A stretch of 33,865 nucleotides of DNA from positions 1-33,865 of the IMG/VR virus record IMGVR_UViG_3300042894_001843; one strand, 5' to 3'. The DNA is from a virus. Made by a program: the position numbers and the translations under genes. Positions 2,781 to 31,300 of the stretch are shown one piece after another (the stretch's first letter is position 1; each line of letters starts with the position of its first letter). Below the pieces are notes generated by a model. It was not told the origin of the DNA, made no database searches, and saw only the letters and a program-made list of their open reading frames with translations.

Positions 2781-2790
2781 GGTGACGGAA

Positions 2791-3369
2791 ATGCACGAAC
2801 AGCACGACAAACAACAGAATAAAACCTGCACAATGTGTGGCGAAACAAAACCACGCAACGAATTCAAGCGACGCTTAACTAAGCGACAATCAGCCGCACT
2901 ACTACGCAGACCCTCAATCTCAACCGCACTCACCGTCATCTCTACTCGTTGTAAAACCTGTTGGGCGCAAACCAAAAGCCGAAAGCCACTCACCATCAAA
3001 CAAATCAAGAGCAAGAAAGCGAGTGGTGATTTAAGGGGTGTGGTAGCAGACATACTACTCACGCAACGCAAACAAAACGCCAACGCAATCAAGAGCAGAG
3101 TCATGAAAGAGTATTGGGAAAAGCAAAGAACCGCACCTATCAAACAACTAGAACAAAACTTACGGCAACAAGTTGCCAAATACAAGAACAGATACCACGC
3201 AACAAAATCAAAAGACCCACATCACGCCCTGCTAGCGCAACATAAAAACAACTACGAGATGGCAAGGCGGGTAAGAGATGAGTTGTTGGCGAGAGCAAAG
3301 GCAGGTGAAGTGTTTGATGTTGATGTTTTGATTGATGTTTATTTTAAGAAAGGAGTAAGTGATGTTTGA
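2791..3369 (+). CDS. Zinc-finger protein, 192 aa
   Basis: A strongly basic 192-residue protein. Near the N-terminus are two CxxC pairs, C13/C16 (CTMC followed by GETKPRNEF) and C54/C57 (CKTC), the arrangement of a treble-clef zinc finger found in several phage and HNH-associated proteins. The rest (residues 65-190) is Lys/Arg/Gln-rich, helical and probably coiled-coil. No HNH catalytic triad is visible. The frame is open to a GTG at 2782, but the ATG at 2791 has a GGGTGA-like ribosome site and the GTG has none, so I prefer 2791. It leads a short cluster with two mini-genes, overlapping the next by 8 nt. A DNA- or RNA-binding regulatory role is inferred. Confidence 0.65.
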   Translation: MHEQHDKQQNKTCTMCGETKPRNEFKRRLTKRQSAALLRRPSISTALTVISTRCKTCWAQTKSRKPLTIKQIKSKKASGDLRGVVADILLTQRKQNANAIKSRVMKEYWEKQRTAPIKQLEQNLRQQVAKYKNRYHATKSKDPHHALLAQHKNNYEMARRVRDELLARAKAGEVFDVDVLIDVYFKKGVSDV

Positions 3370-3601: not shown

Positions 3602-5017
3602 ATGCAGACAATCCTAGAAGTATGGCGTGACTACAACGCACGCCGCCTTGACCGCCCAACAATGTGGTCAAGAGATGAGGTGCGCCAAGTTACACGCGAC
3701 ACCATGATTCGCAACATCAACAAAAGCAACGCAGCCCCATCAAATCAACGCCGACCCGCAAATTGGTATGGCGAGAATGGTCGCAACATTCGGCGTGAGT
3801 TTGGTAGGGGTTTCGCTTCGGCTATTCAAGACAAGGACTACGAGGAGTGCATTGACTTGCTTGAAGCCACTGCGTTTTGGGCAATCAAAGAATACTCCAC
3901 AACAGATTGGGTAGACTTAATCAGAACCAAATGCGACACAGACTATATCCACTCCTGTGATGATTGCGGACACATTGACCACGCAGATAGGGGTTCGTGG
4001 GCATACGACGATAACTGGATATGCGACTCCTGCATTGAGGACAACTATCGGTGGTCAGACAACCGCGAAACCTACATCACAGTCGATGACTGGCATGAGG
4101 AGAATGACGAGCAAGAGGAAGACGAGGATAGGGAAGACTACATCATCGGCGACTACCACGATAGCAAGAGTGTGGTCGGGCATATCCCATCTAGTTACGA
4201 CGAGCGTAAGCCTAGGATTTTATTGGGTATGGAGTTAGAGGTCGAGGTCAACGACGAATACAGTCGCACTGACAAGGCGCAAGAACTCTACGACTCAATC
4301 AAATACACCACCGCCAAAGACGGCATCACCCATCAATACTGTTTCATCGAGCATGACGGCTCACTCAATCGTGGCTTTGAGATAGTTACGGGGTATACGG
4401 GTCTTGATGTTCACGCCAAGCAACTCGAGTTCTTCAAGAAACCATGGCGGGGTGTGCGTAGCCATGACACTCGGACTTGTGGGCTTCATGTGCATATCGA
4501 CAAGCGTGGGGTCAGCCTGTTTCATGCGTGCAAGATGGTGTTCTTCATCAACGACAGCAATAATCAGAAGCTAATCAAGGACATAGCGCGTCGGGCTAAC
4601 GCAGACTACGCACAGATTAAGAACAAGAAGGCGTCGTATCAATGGCTCAAACAAGCCAAGAAAAGCCACAACCCACTTAACTGCCTCAACGAAGAACGGC
4701 GTGAGGCGTTGAACTTTCAGAACGAGGACACCATCGAGTTCCGCTTGTTCAAGGGCACGCTACGCTACGAAACCATCATGGCTTGTCTTGAGTTCACCTA
4801 TGCCACATGGTTCTTCACACGGGACACAGGGGTCAACGAGTTGACCACACCCAACTTCATCAACTTCATATGCCAACCCCAAAACAGGGACTCAACCAAG
4901 TTCCTGCGTGCATACCTCAAGGAGAAGAACTACTCGCTACCCAAACTAGCCTTGGTCAAACCCAACCCCCGCTTTGATGACTACAAACCACAGCCACCCG
5001 AGTCACTCGCCGCGTAA
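3602..5017 (+). CDS. Amidoligase-family (COOH-NH2 ligase) protein with zinc ribbon
   Basis: A 471-residue protein. Residues about 205-405 carry the amidoligase pattern: GMELEVE (209-215), EHDGSL (250-255) followed by EIVTG (260-264), the histidine strand CGLHVHID (293-300), and TIEFRLFKGTLR (377-388). This family has the glutamine synthetase fold and is predicted to form amide bonds between a carboxylate and an amine using ATP. In front lies a zinc ribbon (C119/C122 and C141/C144) and a very acidic linker (about 163-186), while the first 100 residues are basic. The next gene encodes a class II glutamine amidotransferase, the usual ammonia source or hydrolytic partner of such ligases. The substrate cannot be read from sequence; the zinc ribbon suggests docking on a protein or nucleic acid. 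The ATG at 3602 follows the shared CAAACGA leader. Confidence 0.8.
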   Translation: MQTILEVWRDYNARRLDRPTMWSRDEVRQVTRDTMIRNINKSNAAPSNQRRPANWYGENGRNIRREFGRGFASAIQDKDYEECIDLLEATAFWAIKEYSTTDWVDLIRTKCDTDYIHSCDDCGHIDHADRGSWAYDDNWICDSCIEDNYRWSDNRETYITVDDWHEENDEQEEDEDREDYIIGDYHDSKSVVGHIPSSYDERKPRILLGMELEVEVNDEYSRTDKAQELYDSIKYTTAKDGITHQYCFIEHDGSLNRGFEIVTGYTGLDVHAKQLEFFKKPWRGVRSHDTRTCGLHVHIDKRGVSLFHACKMVFFINDSNNQKLIKDIARRANADYAQIKNKKASYQWLKQAKKSHNPLNCLNEERREALNFQNEDTIEFRLFKGTLRYETIMACLEFTYATWFFTRDTGVNELTTPNFINFICQPQNRDSTKFLRAYLKEKNYSLPKLALVKPNPRFDDYKPQPPESLAA

Positions 5018-5052: not shown

Positions 5053-6072
5053 ATGTGTTTATTAGTTACCCAATCCGCAACTTCTCCACAACTTACTGCC
5101 AAATGGCTGACTGACTTTCATGAGTCCAACGCTGATGGTGTCGGTGTCATGTATGTAGAGAACGGCGAGTTAATCGTAGAGAAACTGCTACCCAAGAACC
5201 CCTCCGACTTAATAACTTTCTATCACGCCCACATCGAGGGGCGCGACTGTGCGTTTCACCTACGCATGAAGACCCATGGGCATATCGACATGGAGAACTG
5301 CCACCCATACGAGGTGCTGAATAAGCAAGAGCATGGCATTGACCTATGGCTGATGCACAACGGCGTGTTGCATACCGACAACAAGGCAGACATTACTAAG
5401 TCCGATACATGGCATTACATTCGTGACTACCTACGCCCCATGCTTAACAACAACCCTGACTTTGCCTTTCACCCCGCCTTTGCTGAGTTGATTGGTGAGC
5501 ATATCGGCACAGGCAACAAGTTCGTGCTGATGGACAACCTAGGTAGGCAGGTGATTATCAATGAAGAACAGGGTGTGTATTGGGGTGGGCGTTGGCTGTC
5601 CAATACCTACGCTTGGTCTGCCCCTGCGGGTATTTCTAGTTCTGTTGTTGATGATGTGGCGGACATGAAGTTAGCGGTTGAGCAAATCGCCACAGACCCA
5701 GTGGTTTACAAATACACAGGGCACTACCCATACGCATCATGGGACTACGACGGCGAGATTTATGGCGGTTACAACTCAACCTACAAATCTGCATACAACG
5801 ACCTTGACGCACAGGCTGAGGAAGACCTTGAGATTGACGACATCTTGATTGAGTTGGAGTTGGCAGGGTTTGCTCGTGCGGGTGGGCTAAGTCGCAGACA
5901 AGCGGGTGAGTTCGTGCGTAAGTTTGGTGTTGACGCGTTTTACGAGGTGTCTTACATGGTGATGGACGAAGCCATTGATGAGGATTGGTATGTGCGCATC
6001 ATGTCTGATTTTGCAACGGCACGCGAGTGCTTCCCATGGTTGGAGAAAGAGAGTAAGCAAGTATGGAATTGA
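5053..6072 (+). CDS. Class II glutamine amidotransferase
   Basis: A 339-residue protein starting MCLLVTQ: removal of Met leaves Cys2 as the N-terminal nucleophile that defines class II amidotransferases. Further family signatures are NADGVGVMY (about 26-34), HLRMKTHG (about 69-76), LMHNGVL (about 99-105) and, near 150-185, FVLMDNLGRQ followed by GRWLSNTYAW. These enzymes release ammonia from glutamine or hydrolyse glutamine-like amides. The last 150 residues are extra, acidic and Tyr-rich, with no recognised domain. It lies 35 nt after the amidoligase gene and shares its leader motif, so the two probably work as a pair. Its end overlaps the next gene by 10 nt. The fold call is firm; coupling to the ligase is inference from context. 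Confidence 0.85.
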   Translation: MCLLVTQSATSPQLTAKWLTDFHESNADGVGVMYVENGELIVEKLLPKNPSDLITFYHAHIEGRDCAFHLRMKTHGHIDMENCHPYEVLNKQEHGIDLWLMHNGVLHTDNKADITKSDTWHYIRDYLRPMLNNNPDFAFHPAFAELIGEHIGTGNKFVLMDNLGRQVIINEEQGVYWGGRWLSNTYAWSAPAGISSSVVDDVADMKLAVEQIATDPVVYKYTGHYPYASWDYDGEIYGGYNSTYKSAYNDLDAQAEEDLEIDDILIELELAGFARAGGLSRRQAGEFVRKFGVDAFYEVSYMVMDEAIDEDWYVRIMSDFATARECFPWLEKESKQVWN

Positions 6073-8442: not shown

Positions 8443-9558
8443 ATGCAATTACTAAACTTCAAGCAAGTAAAGCAAGCCGTTAAAGCAGTTGGTCACAAGC
8501 GCACCATCATCATTCAAGGTGAGAATGGTGTCGGCAAGACTGGTGTATACCACGCACTCGAGCAAGACCCCGACTTCGCAAACCATGTGGGTGTCAAGCT
8601 TGACTGCACGCAGATGTCAGATGGTTCTGTGTGGATGCCCGACATTGACAGAGATGCAGGGGTCAGTAGGGAACTACCAAATGAAAGATTTGGGGTGAGC
8701 AAACTCAATCAGAAAGGTGTCAATGGTGCGCGCCCATCTCTCGTGTTTCTTGACGAGATTGCCAAGGCAAAGCAATACATCAAAGACGTTCTTGCGCCGA
8801 TTGTTTATGAGCGACGTGTTGGTAACTACGAGATGGCTGAGGGTAGCGTTGTGTTCTGCGCAACTAACTTGGCAGTTGAGGGCTTGGGCGATTCTATCCA
8901 AGCGCACTTACGCAACAGGCTAGTGTTCCTCACCATGCGCAAACCAACCCAACCCGAGTGGCGTGAGTGGGCTATTGATGCGGGTATCAACCCCATCGTG
9001 ATTGCTTGCACCGACGAGAACCCACATTGGTTCGACTCGTTCCTTGACTACGAGGTAGGTGGCAAGTATGCAGGCAAAGACCAAGCACGTGAGAACGACC
9101 TCATCTTCAACCCACGCTTGTCGCAACAGGCATACATCACACCACGCTCGTTGCACTCAGCTAGCGACATCGTCACAGAGAAAGATGGCTACGACACCGA
9201 CACATTGCAAGCGCTACTCACAGGCACTATCGGTCGTGCCGGTGCTGAGATTATGGGTGCGTTCATTCGGTTCGGTGAGGATACCCCTGCGTTTAGCAAG
9301 ATCGTTTCCTCTCCAAGCACTTGCTCTATCCCAAGCAATCCTGTGGCGCAGATTATCACCGTCTTGAAATGCGTTACACAAACAAGCACGAGGGAAGAAG
9401 CCGAGGCTTGCACCGAGTATGTCATGCGCAACCGCAGAGAACTGCAGTCAATGTTCTGCAACAACATCGCCAACTCAACACGTGCGTCGTTGTTTGTAAC
9501 AGTCAAGCCGTTCCAACAGTTGATGCAAGACAACCGCATTTATTTCGCAACTAAGTAA
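8443..9558 (+). CDS. MoxR-type AAA+ ATPase
   Basis: A 371-residue AAA+ protein. Walker A is GENGVGKT (26-33), Walker B is LVFLDE (100-105) and a sensor 1 asparagine follows in FCATN; LRNRLVF (about residues 160-166) holds candidate arginine-finger residues. MoxR ATPases form rings that use ATP to remodel or insert metal into target proteins and nearly always work with a vWA-domain partner, which is the very next gene here, 9 nt downstream. The last 120 residues are helical and variable (lid and a small extra domain). The ribosome site GAGGAA lies inside the shared CAAACGA leader. As a phage gene this suggests a remodelling machine for a host or virion target; the target cannot be read. Confidence 0.85.
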   Translation: MQLLNFKQVKQAVKAVGHKRTIIIQGENGVGKTGVYHALEQDPDFANHVGVKLDCTQMSDGSVWMPDIDRDAGVSRELPNERFGVSKLNQKGVNGARPSLVFLDEIAKAKQYIKDVLAPIVYERRVGNYEMAEGSVVFCATNLAVEGLGDSIQAHLRNRLVFLTMRKPTQPEWREWAIDAGINPIVIACTDENPHWFDSFLDYEVGGKYAGKDQARENDLIFNPRLSQQAYITPRSLHSASDIVTEKDGYDTDTLQALLTGTIGRAGAEIMGAFIRFGEDTPAFSKIVSSPSTCSIPSNPVAQIITVLKCVTQTSTREEAEACTEYVMRNRRELQSMFCNNIANSTRASLFVTVKPFQQLMQDNRIYFATK

Positions 9559-9567
9559 GGAAAGAAC

Positions 9568-10779
9568 ATGAGTAAAACATGGGAAAAATTAGATGCACAC
9601 AACCGCATTATTGCGGTGCACGTAGACATCAGCAACAACGCAGACTTCGCAGGGTTGTCGGGTGTCGTTTACGTGGGCGACATCAAGTTCGTTACAGAGT
9701 GCCCGACTGCAGGCACAGATGGGCGTGATGTTATTTACAACGAGCAGTTCGTCATGGGCTTGACACGCAAGCAGTTGCGCTTTGTTGTGTTGCATGAGGC
9801 TATGCACAAGGCTTTACAACATTGCACCAACTACCAAGCCATCAGCGAGAAGTATCCCTTGCTTACCAACATGGCGATGGATTACGTAGTCAACGCTACG
9901 CTGTTTGAGATTGACCCCAACTTCCAATTCATTGAACGCACCACCGAGCCTGTGCCTTTGTTCGACCCCAAGTATCAGGGGTGGTCGTTCATTGAGGTGT
10001 TGCAGGATTTATTAAAGAATGTGAAAGTAGTTGAAGTAGGCGGTGTTCAGTATGTTGAGGGCGATGGTCAGGGTCAGCCACTCGACACGCATACCTTTGG
10101 CAAGCTACCCAAGGATAGCAAGGAAGCCAACGAGAACGGCAGACAGATTGACGACGCACTACGCCAAGGCAAGGTTCTCGCCAACAAGTTGGCAGGTAAG
10201 AGGTCAGCCAACAATCCGTTGGACAAGGCAACACAGAAACGTGACACCAACTGGCGTGAGCATATGCGTGAGTGGATTACTGCCCTGTGTGAAGGCGACG
10301 ACTATTCTCGCTTTGCCCCACCCAACAAACGTTTGCTACCACAGGGTATCGTCATGCCTTCGCATTTCTCAGAGGCAACAGGCGAGTTGATTGTGGCAAC
10401 CGATACGTCAGGTTCTATGTATGACATCTTGCCTACTGTATTCGGTGAGATTGCTCGTATCTGCGACAACGTCAGACCCGATGCAGTTCGTGTCATTTGG
10501 TGGGACTCAGCAGTATGCGGTGAGCAAGTGTTCAAGCCACATGAATACGAGAAGATTGCAGGCTTGCTCAAGCCTAACGGTGGTGGTGGCACTTCACCTG
10601 AGTGTGTTGTGCAATACATTACCGAGAAGAAGTATCAGCCCAAGGGTATCGTTTGGTTAACAGACGGCTACCTCGACGGCTCTAACTCAGAGACAGGCAT
10701 GCCTGCGCTTTGGGGTGTGGTTGACAACGACCACTTCACGCCCCCCGAGGGCAAAGTAGTTCGCATTTATTCGCAGTAA
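9568..10779 (+). CDS. vWA-domain protein with HExxH metallopeptidase-like domain (DUF2201 type)
   Basis: A 403-residue protein with two domains. The N-terminal domain has FVVLHEAMHKALQHC, an HExxH zinc site (H76, E77, H80), then a predicted helix (NMAMDYVVNATLF), as in the putative metallopeptidase half of DUF2201 proteins. Residues about 272-403 are a vWA domain with a complete MIDAS: DTSGS (D279, S281, S283), T342 in the GGGGTSPE loop and D366 in WLTDGYLDG. Between them is a basic linker with a Trp/Arg motif (TNWREHMREWITAL). It directly follows the MoxR gene, so a MoxR-vWA complex with a built-in zinc peptidase or zinc-dependent clamp is likely. Whether the peptidase is active is unknown, though the metal ligands are intact. 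Confidence 0.85.
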   Translation: MSKTWEKLDAHNRIIAVHVDISNNADFAGLSGVVYVGDIKFVTECPTAGTDGRDVIYNEQFVMGLTRKQLRFVVLHEAMHKALQHCTNYQAISEKYPLLTNMAMDYVVNATLFEIDPNFQFIERTTEPVPLFDPKYQGWSFIEVLQDLLKNVKVVEVGGVQYVEGDGQGQPLDTHTFGKLPKDSKEANENGRQIDDALRQGKVLANKLAGKRSANNPLDKATQKRDTNWREHMREWITALCEGDDYSRFAPPNKRLLPQGIVMPSHFSEATGELIVATDTSGSMYDILPTVFGEIARICDNVRPDAVRVIWWDSAVCGEQVFKPHEYEKIAGLLKPNGGGGTSPECVVQYITEKKYQPKGIVWLTDGYLDGSNSETGMPALWGVVDNDHFTPPEGKVVRIYSQ

Positions 10780-10788
10780 CTTTCTAAC

Positions 10789-10799
10789 CAAACGAGGAA
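10789..10799 (+). promoter_or_regulatory. Shared leader/RBS motif, copy 5 (CAAACGAGGAA)
   Basis: CAAACGAGGAA, 3 nt before the ATG at 10803. It is the shortest copy: the purine spacer is lost and the AACGAGGAA core is kept. Confidence 0.55.
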
Positions 10800-10802
10800 C
10801 TT

Positions 10803-11216
10803 ATGAAACAGATCAGAACTTCTGTATTACATGAAAAAGCATTAACCAACGCAATCAAACTACTCAACGCTATTGGTGCGCAGTATGCAATCAAAGACGT
10901 AGAGGGTAATCTGCATGGCGACTTGACCGCAGTAAGCAAGAAGAGGAAAGCGCCATCAAAGTATCCGTATGGTTCAATTTCCACATACATCAGACCATAC
11001 GTTGAGGCGTGCGGGGTAAATCAAACGGTAACTATTCCGATCGGGCAGTTTGATGTTGACCACATCTATGGGTCTGCATCATCTATGGCTACTAAGCTGT
11101 GGGGTAATGGCTGTCACAAAGTTGGCACGACGACCGACAAGAAAGCCGTTGTTCTTACCCGCACAGAGAAGCTTGACGACCTTGACGATTTGTTCTCACA
11201 ACTAGGGATTAAATAA
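10803..11216 (+). CDS. Unknown basic protein, 137 aa
   Basis: Not recognised. A 137-residue basic protein: an N-terminal helix (HEKALTNAIKLLNAIGAQYA), a Lys-rich loop (SKKRKAPSKYPYGS, about 57-70) and a beta-rich C-terminal half (TVTIPIGQFDVDHIYGSA), ending in an acidic helix. It carries the shared CAAACGA leader and its stop overlaps the start of the next gene (TAATG). Its place between the vWA gene and the DUF3150-like gene suggests a subunit or substrate adaptor of the MoxR machine, but nothing in the sequence proves it. Confidence 0.6.
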   Translation: MKQIRTSVLHEKALTNAIKLLNAIGAQYAIKDVEGNLHGDLTAVSKKRKAPSKYPYGSISTYIRPYVEACGVNQTVTIPIGQFDVDHIYGSASSMATKLWGNGCHKVGTTTDKKAVVLTRTEKLDDLDDLFSQLGIK

Positions 11217-12088
11217 TGACACGATACAACATCGACACATGTGCGTTGCTTGTTGAACTAAGTGTTTCACAATGGACTGCTAGGAAACTAGACAAGTCCA
11301 CGACTGAGGAACTTGTGAAAGACAAGAACGCACAAGACAAAGGCGCGGCACGTGTAAACAAACACCTGCTCGCAGGGCGTAGTGAACTAGAAGTTATTAA
11401 CCAATACGTTACAGAGACTCGTGGCTTTGTGTATGACAACACGTTGCCATGGAGTGACTCGGGTATACGCTTGTTGCCAAGCGCTAAGTTCATGGAGTTT
11501 AATGACCAGTTACGAGAACGAGAAGATAAGTTTTACGGACTGGTTCAAGAGTTCGTTACTGTTTACCCATCACTTATTACTGCACAAGCCATGGCTCTTG
11601 GAGATATGTTCAACAGAACAGACTACCCGTCTGCGGACGACATCGCACACCGCTTTAGTTTCAACGTCAACTACATGCCCGTCCCTGCATCTGGTGACTT
11701 TAGGGTTGACGTGGGCAACGAGGCGCAGAAAGAACTGCAAGAGAAGCTAGCCAAGCTTGCCGACCAACGTGTCGAGTCAGCTATCAACGGCTTCAAGCAA
11801 CGGCTTCTCGAGCATCTCAAGCGTATGTCGGACAGGCTAGGTGTTGACGTCATCGCAGGCGAAGCTAGACCACGCAAGTTCCACGAGACGTTGCTAGAAA
11901 ATGCCCATGAGTTGTGTGAGTTGGCTGAGTCTCTCAACATCATCAACGACCCGCAGATCGAAGAAGCACGCAAGGCGCTGAAGAAAGCTATCAACGGCGT
12001 TGACATCAAGGACTTACGCAAGGACATGGGTGCACGCACCGAGGTCAAGTCTCAGGTTGATGATATTCTCAACAAGTTTTCTTTTTAA
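11216..12088 (+). CDS. DUF3150-like helical protein, 290 aa
   Basis: A 290-residue mostly helical protein. The layout resembles DUF3150 proteins: an N-terminal LLVELSVSQWTARKLDKS segment, a central GIRLLPSAKFMEF motif (about 82-94), a conserved-looking DYPSADDIAHRFSFNVNYMP stretch (about 141-160), DFRVDVG, then a long coiled coil (170-290). DUF3150 proteins of phages and conjugative elements are commonly found with MoxR-type ATPases and vWA proteins, as here, and so probably belong to the same complex. It is coupled by TAATG to the 137-residue gene and followed by a strong AAGGAGG for the next. The family name is recalled from pattern and context; a profile search would settle it. Confidence 0.55.
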   Translation: MTRYNIDTCALLVELSVSQWTARKLDKSTTEELVKDKNAQDKGAARVNKHLLAGRSELEVINQYVTETRGFVYDNTLPWSDSGIRLLPSAKFMEFNDQLREREDKFYGLVQEFVTVYPSLITAQAMALGDMFNRTDYPSADDIAHRFSFNVNYMPVPASGDFRVDVGNEAQKELQEKLAKLADQRVESAINGFKQRLLEHLKRMSDRLGVDVIAGEARPRKFHETLLENAHELCELAESLNIINDPQIEEARKALKKAINGVDIKDLRKDMGARTEVKSQVDDILNKFSF

Positions 12089-13632: not shown

Positions 13633-14409
13633 ATGTTAGAAAATGTAGAAGCAACAGAACCAAAGAAACCCGCCATATTATTTGTAGCTACACCAATGTA
13701 TGGTGGTATGTGTGTAGGTGGATACACCATGGGTATCTTGAACTGCACTCAAGTGTTTATGCAGAACAACGTCAAGATGTACTACTCGTATATGATGAAT
13801 GAGTCGTTGATTACCCGCGCGCGTAACGGATTAGCTTACGACTTCCTATCAACACCCGACGCAACCCACCTAATGTTTATTGATGCGGACATAAGCTTTA
13901 ACCCCGCCGACATCGTGCGCATGATTAACGCCGACAAAGACATCATCTGTGGTCTGTATCCCAAGAAAGAAATCAACTGGCAGTTAGTATCGGATGCGGT
14001 CAAGCGGGGTGTGGACTACAAAGACTTGCCAAACTACACAGGGTCGTTTGTAGTTAACCTAGTGGGCGGTGCAATGGAGACCACAGGCAACATCAATGAG
14101 CCGATGGAGATCGACAACGGCGGCACAGGATTTATGTTGATTAAACGGGGGGTATTTGAGGCACTCAAAGACAAGGTGCCAACCTATACCAACGACATGA
14201 TTCTTATTATTGACAAAAACCCACAGAAGAAAATCATCCATGAATATTTTGCAACTAGTATCGACGAGACATCCAACCGTTTGCTTTCTGAGGATTATCA
14301 CTTCTGCAAACTGGCTAGACAGAATGGCTTTAAGGTATATGCGGCGCCTTGGGCTCAACTAACCCATAGCGGTACGTACAACTTCAGCGGCACACTGCCA
14401 AGGGGGTGA
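13633..14409 (+). CDS. GT-A fold glycosyltransferase
   Basis: A 258-residue protein with a nucleotide-sugar transferase pattern: an N-terminal beta strand and loop (AILFVATPMYGG), LITRARNGLAYDFL (59-72), the metal-binding DxD in MFIDADISF (D84, D86), a long acceptor region, and SEDYHFCKLARQNG (about 226-239), which holds the usual catalytic-base position of family 2-like enzymes. Such enzymes move a sugar from a nucleotide donor to DNA, protein or glycan. It is followed after 18 codons of overlap-packed sequence by an FkbM methyltransferase, which often methylates sugars. No signal peptide or membrane segment. It has AAGGAG just upstream. The acceptor (virion glycan, host surface or modified base) cannot be read from sequence. 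Confidence 0.75.
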   Translation: MLENVEATEPKKPAILFVATPMYGGMCVGGYTMGILNCTQVFMQNNVKMYYSYMMNESLITRARNGLAYDFLSTPDATHLMFIDADISFNPADIVRMINADKDIICGLYPKKEINWQLVSDAVKRGVDYKDLPNYTGSFVVNLVGGAMETTGNINEPMEIDNGGTGFMLIKRGVFEALKDKVPTYTNDMILIIDKNPQKKIIHEYFATSIDETSNRLLSEDYHFCKLARQNGFKVYAAPWAQLTHSGTYNFSGTLPRG

Positions 14410-14410
14410 G

Positions 14411-14593
14411 ATGAAAAAAGTAACAAGAAAAGAATTAGTAGACAACGTACTTAGCCCTGCATTTAAAAACGAAAATTTTGAAGATGTGTTGGGAGAAATA
14501 ATTATTCGTTTACGTGCGGATTATCCAGAGGTTGCAAAAGGGCTTATGGATGCGGCTAAAGAAACACACAGAAAGCTAAAAGATGCTACCTAA
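14411..14593 (+). CDS. Unknown small helical protein, 60 aa
   Basis: Not recognised. A 60-residue helical protein (MKKVTRKELVDNVLSPAFKN, then LGEIIIRLRADYPEVAKGLM) with a Lys-rich end. It sits 1 nt after the glycosyltransferase and overlaps the methyltransferase by 11 nt, with AAGGGGGT upstream as ribosome site, so it is made with both. It may be a small adaptor of the two sugar enzymes, or unrelated. Confidence 0.55.
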   Translation: MKKVTRKELVDNVLSPAFKNENFEDVLGEIIIRLRADYPEVAKGLMDAAKETHRKLKDAT

Positions 14594-15299
14594 CTGCGAA
14601 CTACTTAAAGTCGACGGCACACAGTTTCTCATCTTTAAAGGGCAAGACCTGATCTCAAACTATTTGAGAAAAGACCTGTACGAGAACGACATACATCAGA
14701 TATGCCTCAAGCTTTTGGTTAATGACGAGGTGGGTACAGTGCTAGACATCGGCGCTAACCTTGGATCGTTTTGCCTACCGCTTGCTAGGAAAATATCAAA
14801 GCACACATATCACGCGTTTGAACCGCAACGTATTGTGTACTACCAACTTTGTGGCAACGCGTTCATAAATGGCTTGGACAATGTGCACTGCCATAACTTT
14901 GGGCTATCTAACAAGCGTGATCGCTTTGAGATTGAGATGCCTGACTATGCAAAGGAAACCAACATCGGGGCGTTTAGCATTGACGAAGATACACGTGCCA
15001 ACGACTACGAGTGTGCGACTGTGGGCAAAGTTGAACCCATGGTTGTATTCCCGCTAGACGACGGGCAACACAAGAACGTGCGCTTGATAAAAATTGACGT
15101 TGAGGGTCACGAACTTGAGGTTATCAAAGGTGCGGTAAAAACTCTCAAACAAAACAACTACCCACCGATTATCTTTGAGGCATGGACATGGAAGCCTTGG
15201 TATCAAGAGAAGCGCAAAGATTTGTTTGAATATCTGCAAGGTATGGGATACGAGATCAAAGCAATGGGTCAGAATAATTTAGCCGTAAGGAAAAAATGA
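14583..15299 (+). CDS. FkbM family SAM-dependent methyltransferase
   Basis: A 238-residue protein with a Rossmann-type methyltransferase core: VLDIGANLGSF (53-63) binds S-adenosylmethionine, HAFEPQ (77-82) ends in the acidic residue that contacts the ribose, and IKIDVEGHELEVIKGA (near 170) is the hallmark FkbM motif. FkbM enzymes methylate hydroxyl groups of sugars and polyketides. It is placed beside a glycosyltransferase, which suggests the pair makes a methylated sugar. It overlaps the polymerase gene by 4 nt. The start at 14583 overlaps the previous gene by 11 nt. Family call is good; substrate is unknown. Confidence 0.8.
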   Translation: MLPNCELLKVDGTQFLIFKGQDLISNYLRKDLYENDIHQICLKLLVNDEVGTVLDIGANLGSFCLPLARKISKHTYHAFEPQRIVYYQLCGNAFINGLDNVHCHNFGLSNKRDRFEIEMPDYAKETNIGAFSIDEDTRANDYECATVGKVEPMVVFPLDDGQHKNVRLIKIDVEGHELEVIKGAVKTLKQNNYPPIIFEAWTWKPWYQEKRKDLFEYLQGMGYEIKAMGQNNLAVRKK

Positions 15300-25193: not shown

Positions 25194-25368
25194 GGTGCAT
25201 TACCCTTGGGTTAACACCCCCGTCAAGGGGGCTTTTTTTGTGCCAACGCTAAAGCTAGCAGAGACTAGAGAAGAAGGGCTCAAAGCCGCCATACATAGCG
25301 GCATCATTGGCAAAGCCGAGTTTGGTGTACAAAACGGCAAGATCGGGGTGCTATTTAAGAGGGTTTAG
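25180..25368 (+). CDS. Unknown small protein, 62 aa, containing a terminator
   Basis: Not recognised. A 62-residue frame starting 14 nt before the primase stop. Its C-terminal 45 residues look protein-like (LKLAETREEGLKAAIHSGII, then FGVQNGKIGVLFKRV), basic and alpha/beta. Codons 13-20 (TPVKGAFF) are made by a complete rho-independent terminator, so most transcripts should end inside the gene. It is either read by antitermination, or begins downstream at GTG 25240, or is a remnant. It overlaps the stop of the opposite-strand giant gene by 14 nt. Only a weak AGAAG ribosome site is seen. Confidence 0.4.
   Translation: MRKIKVHYPWVNTPVKGAFFVPTLKLAETREEGLKAAIHSGIIGKAEFGVQNGKIGVLFKRV
25216..25239 (+). 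terminator. Rho-independent terminator of the early block
   Basis: CCCCC (25217-25221) pairs with GGGGG (25227-25231) around GTCAA, extended at the base by A25216 and C25232, then seven T residues (25233-25239). It ends + strand transcription shortly after the primase stop at 25193 and before the converging giant gene. It lies inside the 62-residue frame. Confidence 0.75.
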
Positions 25369-28300
25369 ACTTATTAAGCGCCTCAGCCATCTTGATTCTA
25401 ATTGCGCGTAACTGCTTGATTTTCTCAGCTTTCTCGTCAGCGCTCATGCGCTTGTCTTCACGAACCGCTTTTTCAGCGGCAGCTAGCTGACCCATCTCTC
25501 TAGTAAACGCACCGGCGGCTTGCTCAATCATCAACTCGTTGCTGTATTTACGTACAAAGGCTTCGATCTCTTCTTTGTTGCCCTTGGCGGCAATCTGCTT
25601 TAGCGTATTAGAAGCTTGTTGCGCGCGCTCTGCGGTCTCGTAGGCTGCGTTAATTACCCCGCTTGCATCGTTAGGTTGAAAGAAACCGCCAACAATTGGG
25701 TACTGGCTAGGCATTTTGGTGGGTGAAGCCACGTCTGTTGTTGGTGCAAGCACAGGATTTAAGGCGCTAGTAAGCGCAAGCGTTAGGCCACCGCCGTATG
25801 CCTTGGCTAAGTAATCAAGCATCACAGGCGATAGCAGTTCTTTATCAAGGCTAGATACCCACTTGGCTAATTCAGTTGTTTGTGGGCGCTCTCTGTAGCC
25901 GGGCAGCATTCTTTTCTCTTTTGCGGACTCAATATCTTGACCGGTAAAGAACGAGAAATTAGCAGTTGCTTCGATTGCTGGCTTGATTGCCTGCGGTAAA
26001 CCAATTGGGTTACTGTTAGAAGCGGCTTGCTTGAAGAACTTAAGTACGTTCTTAGCTTCTTCGTCATTAAACATCATGTTAAATACTGCTTCGGGTAAAC
26101 CCTTAAACACGTATCCAAATTCAAACGGTGTTGGGACTCTGATCGGTTCGTCAAGGAACGGCACCCTGATAAACCAACTGTTGTACTTAACAAACGGATC
26201 AGCATTTTTATATGCCTCGTCGTCTTGCATAGCTGCAGCGTACATCATGGTAAACAACGCCAAGTACGTACCGCGCTTAAACATCTTCATACGCAAATCT
26301 TTTTGTCCGCCTAGGTTGCTAGTTCCCTTAAACGACTTGGCAAACATAGTCAAACCTTGAACCTGTGTGTTCATGAACGGTACCAAAGTAGACATCCAAT
26401 ACACGCTTGGCGATAAACCACGCTTATTTACGTTTAGCGACTCTAAAACAGCTAGCTTAGCCCGCATAGGCGTCATGCCTTGTTTTAGGTATGCGTTGTA
26501 CATAGCTACACGGGTAGCCGCATCACCCTTCATAGCGGCCCGATCTAATTTAGCTAGCAACATTTGCCAACCCGTTTTACCACTGGTAATCTGCAACATG
26601 ATTCTGCTCATGTCCTCTGGCATACCGGTAAACAGTTGACCGCCCACTAAACCAGCTCGTTGTAGTTCTTTCTCAGTCTGGTTCTTGTTAGCCCACATGC
26701 TGCCAAGTTCTTTGGTAGCGTCAATTACAGGCTTAGCATTTGCGCCTGAGTAAAGCCACATTGCCGTAGAGTCTTTAATGATCTGCCGCACAGAATACGC
26801 AGGATCTCTAGTAATCATGGTGCGCAGCCAACGGCTTGGCAAACCTAAAATCTTAACTGCCACAGGTATCTGCAGCTTAATACCGTCAAGCCCTTTAATT
26901 AACAGGTCAGCAGGTATATCTTCAAAAGGTGTATCTTTGGTATTCAAGCGCCAAGCCGCATCCACACCGTCTATTTTTGCCCTAATAATGTCTGTGCCAG
27001 TTAGCTTGGGGCTAACACGTGTGGCAATTTTAGTCTGCCCTGTGCCAATCTTCTCAAGTTGTTGGGCTAATTGACCTGTGGCTAAGTTACGTAAAGCTAA
27101 ATCAACCAATACAGCTGTATTTTGAAACGCGCTTTCTTCAAAGTTGACCAACATCTCTTTGCCGCCAACCAACTCATCTAGGTAAGGCTGATCTGTTAAA
27201 CGCCCTACATTTATAACTTGCTCGCCTGAGATAACTAGTTGCGCAATACCGTCACGCACCCTGTAAAAAGGCACGTAATCGTTGTATTTAGTTAATCGAG
27301 CACCTTCTTCTTTAGAAATAGCGCCTGTCTGAACTGCAAAATTAATTAAATCTTTGTTGTACTCAGCATAAACTTTAGCCGCTTCTTCAAATATAGGTTT
27401 AGCGCCGGCTTGTTCAATATTAGCAACAACGTCTTTTAATTCTTTTTCTGTTATCCGTAAGTCTGAAGCTAGCGTTTTTAACCCAACACGCTTAGCACGT
27501 ATAGCTACTAAATACAAACCAAACAAATTATTAATGGCCTGCGCATTACCAAGCATTTTTGCTCGTTGCAATATATTGCCAACCTTAATTAAGTTAGCGC
27601 CATCTTTTTTACCAAGCACTTCCATTTCACCAGCGGCATTCTTAGTTAGCTGTGGTACGCCATCAGTAGCAGATTGAGCCGTCAAATTTAAACGCTGATC
27701 TGTTTGACGTAAGTACATAGTAGTTTGCAAAGCTGACACAGAGTCAATCATGCCTGCGCTCTCGGCTTTTTCTATAATCTTTGTGGCAGGCGCTAAGCGG
27801 TCAATAAACTGTGTGTAACCAGGCAAGCCAAGCACGTTTGCAAAAATGCCATCTTTAACTGATTTTTTCTGCGCAAACAGTTTGTTAATAACATCAATCG
27901 ACTTCTGTTCTACTTCACGGCTGTAACTTGTAGGGGCCAAGAAAGCTGTTTTGCCGTCAGGAGTTCTGTATGCTCCGAGCCTGCCACCCTCATATTGCTT
28001 TTTAGCTTCGCGGATTAAATTAAATATTTCCTGCGTTGTTTTGCTAGGCATGTTGTCAAAGCCAGCGCCCGTAAAGAACTTGCGCACGGCGTTAACAATC
28101 ATCTTAATAAAGTCTTTTAAAGCTGAGCTTGCTTTGCTAGGTAACGGACGTTCTGCGGTGTGTGCTACCATTTCACGAGTAACAAGCATGCGCATTGCTT
28201 CTTCAGACATGTTAGTGCCTTTAGCTGCGGCAAAAGCTTCAGTTACATCATCATATACACCTAGTTCAGTAGCTAATTTAAGTACGCCTTCTTCTCCATC

Positions 28301-31300
28301 GGCAAACACTTTTTTAACAAGCGCCTTCATGCCCGCCGGGCCAAGTAAAGTATCTACTGCGTAGTGTCCAATAAGCTCGTGCTCAATGGTTTCTTGCAGG
28401 TCATTTAGGTCCGTGTGCGCGTCACCAATAACTACTACTGTGCCATCAGGCATTACGCCACCACGAACTTTAGTCAAGTCTTTGCCAGCGGCAACCGCAT
28501 CGTTTATAAATTGTTGCGGTGCATCAGAAATGTTTTTAGCGTATATAAAGTTAACGCCTGTAGCTAACGTTACTTTTTTACTACTTGTTTCTTCAATAGT
28601 TTTTTCAGCTTGTTGTGTATTTAAACCAACTGCTTGAAGTGCTTTTTTGTACGCTTGAGCAACAGTTGCACTATATTCAACAGAATCGTCTATATATAAA
28701 GCAGAATGTGCTTTGTGCCATTCATTACCTATTTGGCCTCTGTCAGTAGCCATCATGTATTCAATATATTCTTTAAAATCTTCGTAATTTTCTTTTTTAG
28801 CGTACTCTACAAAGTTTTCATGAATTATTGATTTGTCTTTGTTGTAAAGTTTTCTTAATGCTTCAAATATTTCGTTGTTAAAAGTTTCATCAAAAACAGA
28901 TGCTTTATCTACGCCTTTTTCAAATTTGTCTTTGTTGTAAATAGCTTTGTACGTATTTTCAAATAACGTAAGCACCCCACCTGTAACTTTGTCCGCACTA
29001 TGCTCAAGATCGCCCATAGCATCAGGCCAATGGGTACCGTATTTTTTATAAAAGTTATCACTAAAATCAGAAGTATCGTCAATGCCAAGAGATAAGCCAC
29101 TCAAAGCATTTTGAACAATCATTTTTCTAAAGTCAGCATTAACATCGGCTAATTTAGGTATTTTTATTGGCAGACTAAACGCGCCTAAAGCAGTGGTTAC
29201 AGCACGCCTTGTTGGGTCAAACCCTTGCTTTTTAATTAAGTCATTAATAAACGAGTCTGCAACAAACATATCAATGCCGCCCGATTTGCCGGGTTTGTCA
29301 CGGAACATTGTTCTGTTAATTGTTTCTTTATCGTCAAATTCAGCTTCAACTTGTCCTTGAGAATAAAATTCGTCTAACGCTTTGTTGTATAGCGTTGTTT
29401 TGTTAAGAGCAACGTATTTATCAAAAGCTTCACCTTGTAACCCAAGTTCTTTGGCCTTTTTCTTAGCCACAGTTTCAGCAGCACGAGCAAAACTATTGGT
29501 TCCTGTACGAAGCGCATGCTTATGTACAGCTTTTTCAGGATTATTACCAATACGTAAAAGATCTTTTTCTGCATTAAGTAAAACTTGTAGTTCTCTAGCT
29601 GCTTCACGCGCAGCGTTTGCATTTGTTGTGTTTCCAAGTTTAGCGGCAACTACAGCTTGCGCATTAAAGTCTTTTATAGTGTCTTCTAGCTCTTGCAAAG
29701 ACATTCTGTTTTCAGATGTGCTTTCTTTGATTTCTTTACGAGCTTTGTAGCTAAGCACAAAATCAACTGCGTTTTCAATAGACTCAAGATTAATATCACG
29801 CAAAGCTCTTTCGCCACGGGCATTCAAACGCCCTATCATTTGCTTAATAACTTCTTTCTTCTTTTCTAGCTCATCAATAAGCTCTTTAGGCGCTTTAAGT
29901 TTGTTTTGCTCGTAAATTTGATCTTGATATTCGTTTTTCTTAGCATTAAGCGTCTGCGACATGATCATCATAGCTTGCGTTTTATCCGCAGCCTGCTCTG
30001 CTTCAGACTTTAATTTGGTTTCGGTTGGGGTAATTGCTAATTTCTGCACAGCAGAAACAGCTAATTTCATTTTGTCTTTTGTTTTTTGTAAATCTTCATA
30101 AGCTTTAGTTAACGCTTTTTCTTGTTGCGCACCTAATTTTTTTGGTGTACCGTTTTTACTAACAGCTATTTCAATTGCTGGTGCTTTTTCTTTTGGCCCA
30201 AGCTCTTTAATAATAGTTGCAAGATCAACAAAAGGCGTTAGTTCTTTAACTTTTTTAGCGGTTTTAGGTATTACTCCCGTTTCGCTTGCTAGTTTTTGTG
30301 CTTCAAGACGCGCAATCTTGTCTTCAAGCAAAGTAATCTGCATTTGATCTGCCGCAAAAGCAGCGCCAGCAGCACGTTGTTTTTGTAACGTTTCTAAAGT
30401 TTTAGCGTTAACTTTTGTACTAGATTTAACTGTGTATGTAATTCCGTTGTACACAACACGATACTGTTTAGTTTGGCTTACTATTTGTGCATTAGCTTGC
30501 GCGGCCGCTTTAACACGTTCCGCAATAGTTTTATCAAGTAGCGCACGCTCATCTCTAAAATTTTTACCTTCTGCAGAAATACTTTGCTTTTGTTCTTTTG
30601 TAGGTTGCTTAAACTGTTTAAGTAAATCATTAAGTTTTTTTCTAGCTTCTACAACAGTTTCATCAGCGTTTACAGCAGCGCGTACTTTGTCTAAATCTAA
30701 AGCAGATTCAATACTCTTAATAGTTTCGTCTGAATAGCTAAAAAGTTGCGTTGCCGCTTTTTTAGCTTCGAGTGTGTCTTCACGTTCTTTTTTAGTAGCG
30801 GGCAGCTCGTTAAATTCTTTAGCTTGTAAAACTTTTAACTTGGCATCGTACTCTTCCATTTTAGCTTGAGCCGCAGTGCGCATTTTTAACGCATGCAAAT
30901 GCCGTTCAGGAGCAGTTTTAATAGACTCTAAAACCGCTTTATGGTGCGCATAACGAGCCATTAATACTTCTTCTAGCTCAGACGAAGCGTTAGTAAGTAA
31001 TGTTTCGTAAACGCTTTTTGGTTTTAGCTTTTTATCTTTACGGCTAACGTACGCTTTATCTTCTTTTACGTATACTTTTACGCCTATTATGTTTTCAATA
31101 TCTTTTATGCGGTCTATAAATTTTTTACGAATATCAAAATACTGTTGTTTACGCTGCTGTTGTTCTTCTGTACGAACGCTTGTACCTCGAATAAATCCAG
31201 GAATATTTGCAAATCTATAGTCTGCATTTAACTGACTAAGCTCACTAGCTATTTCATTAAGTAAACGTACATAGCCAGCAAATGTATCTGTAAGTTCGTT

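Follow-up and report, generated by a model that had tools for sequence, protein, structure and literature searches.

Genes for an amidoligase and a glutamine amidotransferase (GATase) recur in phages, and papers on these phages predict a change of the cell wall against superinfection or the synthesis of a metabolite, giving neither substrate nor assay in the passages that deal with these genes (PMC10580990, PMC5498523, PMC11318856). As the source of phage amidoligase predictions, Iyer et al. 2009 is cited (among PMC3890496, PMC10580990, PMC7824862, PMC5705681, PMC12419801, PMC11318856, PMC3517423, PMC5498523 and PMC6256558). In LUZ24- and phiEco32-type phages the pair is described as part of a larger 'Peptidoglycan Modification Cassette' (PMC5498523), and pairs of the kind found in Mycobacterium phages Marvin and Gattaca and in Methylophilales phages MEP401 and MEP402 are recorded as an amidoligase and a GATase of unknown function (PMC10580990). 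A literature search that left out Iyer et al. 2009 returned no published report of a finger in an amidoligase.

The window analysed here, the whole 33,865-nucleotide stretch of viral record IMGVR_UViG_3300042894_001843, encodes a ligase (P0001) and a GATase-like neighbour (Table 1). As in the LUZ24-like and phiEco32-like phages, an Amidoligase_2-type ligase stands beside a class II GATase-like protein and the pair carries a Cys4 finger. However, the finger is on the ligase in the window and on the GATase in those phages, where the LUZ24 gp18 and phiEco32 gp84 ligases have no finger and the GATases end in one and several CxxC pairs, respectively. Their cassette also adds genes for an ATP-grasp protein, a gamma-glutamyl cyclotransferase and a second ligase. 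Searches for the cyclotransferase (PF06094) and the ATP-grasp gene (LUZ24 gp21 as query) each found it in 8/8 LUZ24/phiEco32-type records and in 0/24 finger-on-ligase records including the window, the latter having been chosen from the available loci mostly for length, with some of them, and perhaps the window itself, being fragments. The COOH-NH2 ligase PF14395 was found in 0/24 of these records, by a search that recovered just 3/8 positives. As the cyclotransferase and ATP-grasp genes are missing, we rejected a full peptidoglycan cassette in the window and regard its pair as a two-gene core, to which the cell-wall idea for phiEco32 is not transferable by default.

The Marvin/Gattaca and MEP401/MEP402 pairs resemble the window in having the finger on the ligase and the GATase directly downstream, but are remote (about 25-28% identity) and have a shorter acidic part; in Gattaca and Marvin the GATase also bears CxxC pairs. 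Stand-alone cellular members of Amidoligase_2 (PF12224) belong to the same ligase family, but lack both a finger and, within about 1.5 kb, a GATase, and are about 330 aa long.

Table 1. Features of the amidoligase locus in the window; residue numbers refer to P0001.
Feature	Coordinates	Strand	Details and basis
Putative ligase subunit P0001, Amidoligase_2 type	3602..5017	+	471 aa; PF12224 and phrog_16683
N-terminal helical region, residues 1-111	3602..3934	+	secondary structure of the AlphaFold2 model
Cys4 finger, residues 116-148 (C119, C122, C141, C144)	3947..4045	+	conservation and model secondary structure
Acidic stretch, residues 156-186	4067..4159	+	strand and helix running into a predicted disordered linker; D/E counts, pLDDT
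Glutamine-synthetase/YbdK-like ligase domain, residues 198-446	4193..4939	+	VIA-align and conserved columns
Putative partner, class II glutamine amidotransferase-like	5053..6072	+	339 aa, Met-Cys start; GATase_4 match, conserved residues

The ligase, its Cys4 finger and its acidic stretch

P0001 scores 30.8 bits against Amidoligase_2 (gathering cut-off 22) and matches phrog_16683 at E 5.1e-29 as well as phrog_2443, which bears the name amidoligase enzyme. An alignment of 51 sequences, taken from viral loci and the window, yielded an AlphaFold2 model (md526b76342b0) with a mean pLDDT of 86.0 and a pTM of 0.63, whose best structural matches are of the glutamine synthetase (GS)/YbdK type. VIA-align places the modelled ligase domain on the YbdK-type structures 1r8g and 1tt4 with Z 12.0 and an rmsd of 4.4-4.6 Å over 215-218 residues, and the C-terminal part of the model also aligns to plant glutamate-cysteine ligase (Z 11.2) and to glutamine synthetases. 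The GS-like fold expected of Amidoligase_2 is thus present in the predicted structure. Asn371 is kept in 45 of the 51 aligned relatives, and E211, E213, D252, E260, H296, H298, R331, E379 and R381 in all 51; we take these conserved acidic, His and Arg columns to be the Amidoligase_2 active-site residues. With 471 aa, P0001 is longer than the finger-less cellular PF12224 members of our sample (296-438 aa, median 331, n=23), in agreement with an earlier note on this DNA, which had described stand-alone amidoligases as usually shorter. A PADLOC search for defence systems returned no match for P0001, the window GATase, LUZ24 gp19 or the L007 ligase.

The cysteines of P0001 lie at positions 83, 111, 119, 122, 141, 144, 247, 293, 310, 361, 395 and 424, and both CxxC pairs, C119/C122 and C141/C144, sit where the same note had placed a zinc ribbon. 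These four are kept in 51, 51, 47 and 51 of the 51 aligned relatives, respectively, so that the pairs withstand comparison with close homologues. Chance cysteines were ruled out because C83 and C111 vary among the same relatives while the finger cysteines stay. In the model, residues 116-148 run from a strand through the first CxxC, a hairpin and a second strand to a helix beginning at the second CxxC. This order is that of treble clefs, whereas a classical ribbon has two knuckles. Since the second CxxC opens a predicted helix, the module looks treble-clef-like more than like a classical ribbon; what stands of the zinc ribbon is a conserved Cys4 module ahead of the ligase. The region is confidently predicted as one compact unit (mean pLDDT 86-96 in the ten-residue blocks from 111 to 160). 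Alignment and model together give four conserved ligands on a knuckle-hairpin-helix, as is general for zinc fingers, and the module may accordingly be described as putatively zinc-binding.

No curated Pfam zinc family was matched by P0001 at its cut-off, and relatives reach such families only below it (the L007 ligase scores 22.4 bits against Double zinc ribbon, cut-off 27.3). An assignment of the finger to a class by comparing its profile with PDB sequences was rejected as too weak, the matches being RSC8 (E 8e-4 as a sum over a chain with repeats, in which no single stretch passes) and ASH1L (0.042). In most of 72 distinct relatives, the residues ahead of the ligase domain include one CxxC...CxxC pair near the ligase, and in some there are tandem arrays. 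By a greedy count over 125 clusters, ligases carry no CxxC pair in 47, one in 26, two in 8, three in 26, four in 9, five in 7 and six in 2, which makes at least three pairs in 44/125. As a background, a CxxC...CxxC pair is present in 16/675 distinct other ORFs of at least 200 aa from the collected loci. The ligase at L063:2614-3861 has 27 overlapping CxxC motifs before its ligase domain.

The acidic run reported between finger and ligase is real, with 13 D/E at residues 163-186 (about 14 had been claimed) and a densest 24-residue segment, 156-179, that holds 14. A segment with at least 14 D/E was found in 1/675 background ORFs. Relatives were scored for at least 10 D/E in a 24-residue segment within the 110 residues before the ligase domain; 36/675 background ORFs reach this density anywhere along their length. 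Among finger-bearing clusters such a segment occurs in 20/61 with the finger on the ligase only, 4/14 with it on both proteins and 2/19 with it on the GATase only; the remaining classes give 2/6 (GATase without finger), 0/2 (finger without GATase) and 0/23 (neither). By these counts, acidity marks some but not all of the finger-bearing enzymes. On the branch with L200, L213 and their kin, most ligase finger cysteines are gone and the acidic run is kept, and in the truncated relative L093 this position is taken by a simple run of aspartates. The expectation of a conserved ribbon and a variable linker is therefore borne out for the ribbon and for the length and letters of the linker, but the linker remains acidic in many relatives. 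Residues 171-175 of the model have a pLDDT below 50 and are predicted to be disordered; most simply, the acidic residues belong to a flexible linker that joins the finger to the ligase.

The neighbouring genes

The downstream gene reaches E 4.1e-4 and 19.8 bits against Pfam GATase_4, and is called GATase-like here because this score lies under the cut-off of 23; the LUZ24 partner scores 92 bits against GATase_6 (cut-off 27). Class II glutaminases are marked by a Cys beside the initiator Met and by Arg, His-Asn-Gly and Asp motifs. The window gene encodes all of these elements (MC start, HLRMKTHG, HNG, SDT), as expected of a candidate class II glutaminase, and C2, H69, R71, T74, G76, N82, H84, P85, H102, N103 and G104 are invariant in eight aligned relatives. 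By a strict pattern, all four elements occur in 74/99 GATase clusters, while 20 miss only the Arg and 5 miss others. In the 99 clusters that could be graded for position, the GATase is always on the same strand as the ligase; it follows the ligase within 250 bases in 82, follows it at a greater distance in 7 and precedes it in 10. Among the best 80 matches of one viral scan, a GATase-model match lies beside the ligase in 80/80 loci, with a model whose seed included one non-GATase (the L005 neighbour); later counts come from a model made without it.

Further genes of the window around the pair were found again in only 1-4 of the collected loci, which have short flanks. Upstream of the ligase, the gene at 2782-3369 has CxxC motifs of its own and a weak endonuclease match (phrog_2340, E 1.2e-4), with relatives at L002 and L010 (same contig) and at L011. 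An AAA ATPase (phrog_1297), a VWA/metallopeptidase-like DUF2201 protein (phrog_1314, labelled HNH endonuclease there) and a DUF3150 protein stand in a row at 8443-12088, in what looks like a separate phage module. At 13633-15299 a glycosyltransferase-like protein (weak Anp1 match, below cut-off) lies beside an FkbM methyltransferase, adjoining the DNA polymerase gene. The right quarter of the window is filled by a single 2831-aa ORF (25355-33850, minus strand), for which no PHROG family was found at E 0.001.

Occurrence of the finger across related loci

Loci were gathered from four viral scans, one genome-contig scan, phage records and Pfam-based searches that covered 245 genomes of Oscillibacter's class and 398 of Polynucleobacter's phylum. 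Two of the viral scans consisted of the best 80 matches to one query and so favour that query's relatives. At 70% identity the 325 loci fell into 128 clusters, 124 of them scored; the four left unscored were three in which the ligase is cut (L276, L093, L194) and one lacking a flank (L248). Fifteen PF12224 loci missed by the ligase models stand outside the 124-cluster table and were checked by position, some of their ORFs perhaps being in the wrong frame.

A GATase is found nearby in 100/124 scored clusters and is missing from 24. At least one partner bears a finger in 95/100 clusters with a GATase (ligase only 62, both 14, GATase only 19, neither 5), compared with 1/24 clusters without one, where the single finger ligase is L189 and the other 23 have none. 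Where a GATase accompanies a ligase without a finger, the finger is on the GATase in 19/24 clusters, against the 16/675 background ORFs. Fisher tests, which treat clusters as independent, give 1e-7 for ligase finger versus GATase finger and 4e-19 for any finger versus the presence of a GATase.

The same picture is seen in a PF12224-only sample from the two taxonomic groups searched with Pfam, which was not picked by similarity to the window and in which inspection left 5 of 57 loci with both finger and GATase and 52 with neither. The raw counts, before four rows were inspected, were 50 with neither, 4 with both, 2 with a finger only and 1 with a GATase only. Both finger-only rows (L256, L261) proved to be ORFs on the opposite strand, and the single GATase-only row (L276) an ORF truncated by a contig end, where CxxC pairs are visible; for L272 and L334 the position check gave no ORF covering the locus.

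A tree of 120 ligase domains implies 4 changes of the ligase finger and 8 of the GATase finger. Counting supported branches, the ligase finger yields 3 independent pairs with no direction (not significant), and GATase presence 2 independent pairs, which mostly agree in direction with the finger (p 0.5). Three places carry the pattern: the LUZ24/phiEco32 clade, where the GATase bears the finger in 16/19 rows; the L213/L216 branch, nested in a clade with fingers on both proteins, which has lost the ligase cysteines and has the finger on the GATase only; and a clade with L005, L176 and L178, inside a finger-bearing clade, which has neither finger nor GATase. With so few independent events, the association of finger and GATase is a well-marked pattern with few replicates.

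The consensus sequences of the ligase and GATase fingers look alike, and one hhalign comparison gave a probability of 90. However, a ligase-finger model matched 34/270 GATase ORFs (E up to 10) together with 118 other ORFs, some of which outscore every GATase. A common origin of the two fingers is therefore not established.

Among cellular loci, several genomes of Ruminococcus flavefaciens (in the L096-L165 group of Ruminococcus and relatives) have more than one finger-bearing ligase locus each, and PF12224 is found at 6 places in the genome behind L108 and at 4 in that behind L102. On an archaeal contig, from Nitrosotalea (L169), a finger ligase has a GATase 2.4 kb upstream.

Possible roles of the finger

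A ligase domain, a conserved finger, a conserved neighbour and the pattern in which the finger occurs can all be read from sequence comparison. Based on these, we propose, at a probability of roughly 0.45, that P0001 is the ligase subunit of a two-protein glutamine-dependent amidoligase and that its finger helps to hold the pair together. Most simply, a GS-like ligase and a class II glutaminase-like neighbour would turn a carboxylate, ATP and glutamine into an amide. The downstream protein would supply ammonia by splitting glutamine; with ATP, the ligase would activate a carboxylate and convert it to the amide; and the Cys4 finger would hold the two in a complex so that ammonia could pass between them, with the acidic stretch as a flexible spacer joining finger and ligase.

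That the finger accompanies the GATase, on either protein, suggests a role in the pair, and its near-invariant cysteines and its presence in 95 of 100 clusters against 1 of 24 argue for docking. Against it stand the small number of independent events on the tree, the five GATase clusters in which the pattern used detects no finger, and L189. Moreover, docking from either partner would call for two distinct contact surfaces, and the spread from 1 to 6 finger pairs is unexpected in a fixed docking site and is also compatible with recruitment of a substrate.

A precedent for docking comes from MurT/GatD, which like the proposed window pair comprises two proteins, carries out glutamine-dependent amidation and has a Cys4 insertion in the ligase (PMC6085368, PMC6113224). 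In the pneumococcal enzyme, the Cys-rich insertion of MurT is reported to take part in the interface with GatD, and a four-Cys mutant affects association (PMC6085368), whereas the ribbon of the S. aureus complex is described as exposed, variable and of unclear role (PMC6113224); the latter counts against docking. GatD is there compared with the glutaminase HisH (PMC6085368). The two systems are non-homologous and form a working analogy only, MurT having a Mur-ligase fold and the window a GS-like ligase with a class II glutaminase-like protein. Glutaminases of the HisH type, by comparison, are class I.

The same observations leave room for a second reading, which we consider possible, namely that the finger brings the target of modification, whether a protein or a cell-envelope precursor, to the ligase-GATase pair and could thus sit on either partner or be repeated. 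The earlier note, too, had suggested that the ribbon could select what is modified. Its occurrence on the ligase, the GATase or both and the tandem arrays of at least three pairs are in line with this, and a Cys4 finger as a possible protein-contact platform is discussed for MurT (PMC6113224). However, the 23 finger-less clusters among the 24 without a GATase speak against it, as those enzymes need a substrate too. We rank docking first and recruitment a close second because of the company of finger and GATase and the MurT/GatD precedent; the two are not mutually exclusive, and their probabilities need not add to one.

In ergothioneine synthesis, EgtA and EgtC add and remove a gamma-glutamyl group. 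By analogy, the GATase-like protein could be an amidohydrolase removing gamma-glutamyl groups that the ligase adds, which we regard as unlikely. In its favour, LUZ24 gp19 weakly matches the EgtC model TIGR03442 (29.2 bits, cut-off 218.65), and the cyclotransferase accompanies all eight LUZ24/phiEco32-type pairs; against it, gp19 matches GlmS and PurF models at least equally, and the cyclotransferase is found with none of the 24 finger-on-ligase pairs. Similarly improbable is that the finger merely braces the N-terminal part of the ligase and owes its link with the GATase to common descent and not to function. The few changes on the tree would suit such a brace, but the L213/L216 branch without ligase cysteines has a GATase finger, as does the separate LUZ24/phiEco32 branch. 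The earlier note's suggestion that the finger binds nucleic acid while the acidic tract mimics DNA is very improbable and, given the predicted disorder at 171-175, unsupported: such acidity is unusual among background ORFs, but the tract is a short run between two folded parts, the poly-Asp run of L093 fits a linker, known relatives of the ligase fold act on small carboxylates or peptides, and no link to DNA binding was found.

The finger thus probably serves a two-protein machine rather than DNA mimicry, and its pattern of occurrence means that the two genes are to be treated as one enzyme. It offers a simple marker that separates a paired from a stand-alone amidoligase subfamily, and a small module bearing on how the partners or their substrate come together. 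More tentatively, a mobile Cys4 treble-clef module may be a third component common to the glutamine-dependent amidoligases of one widespread family, found in phages, Bacillota, Pseudomonadota, Bacteroidota and archaea; the module would be carried by the ligase, the glutaminase or both, multiplied in tandem and lost with the glutaminase. If this is true, then, taken together with MurT/GatD, unrelated ligase-glutaminase pairs would have independently acquired Cys4 fingers that couple ammonia release to ligation.
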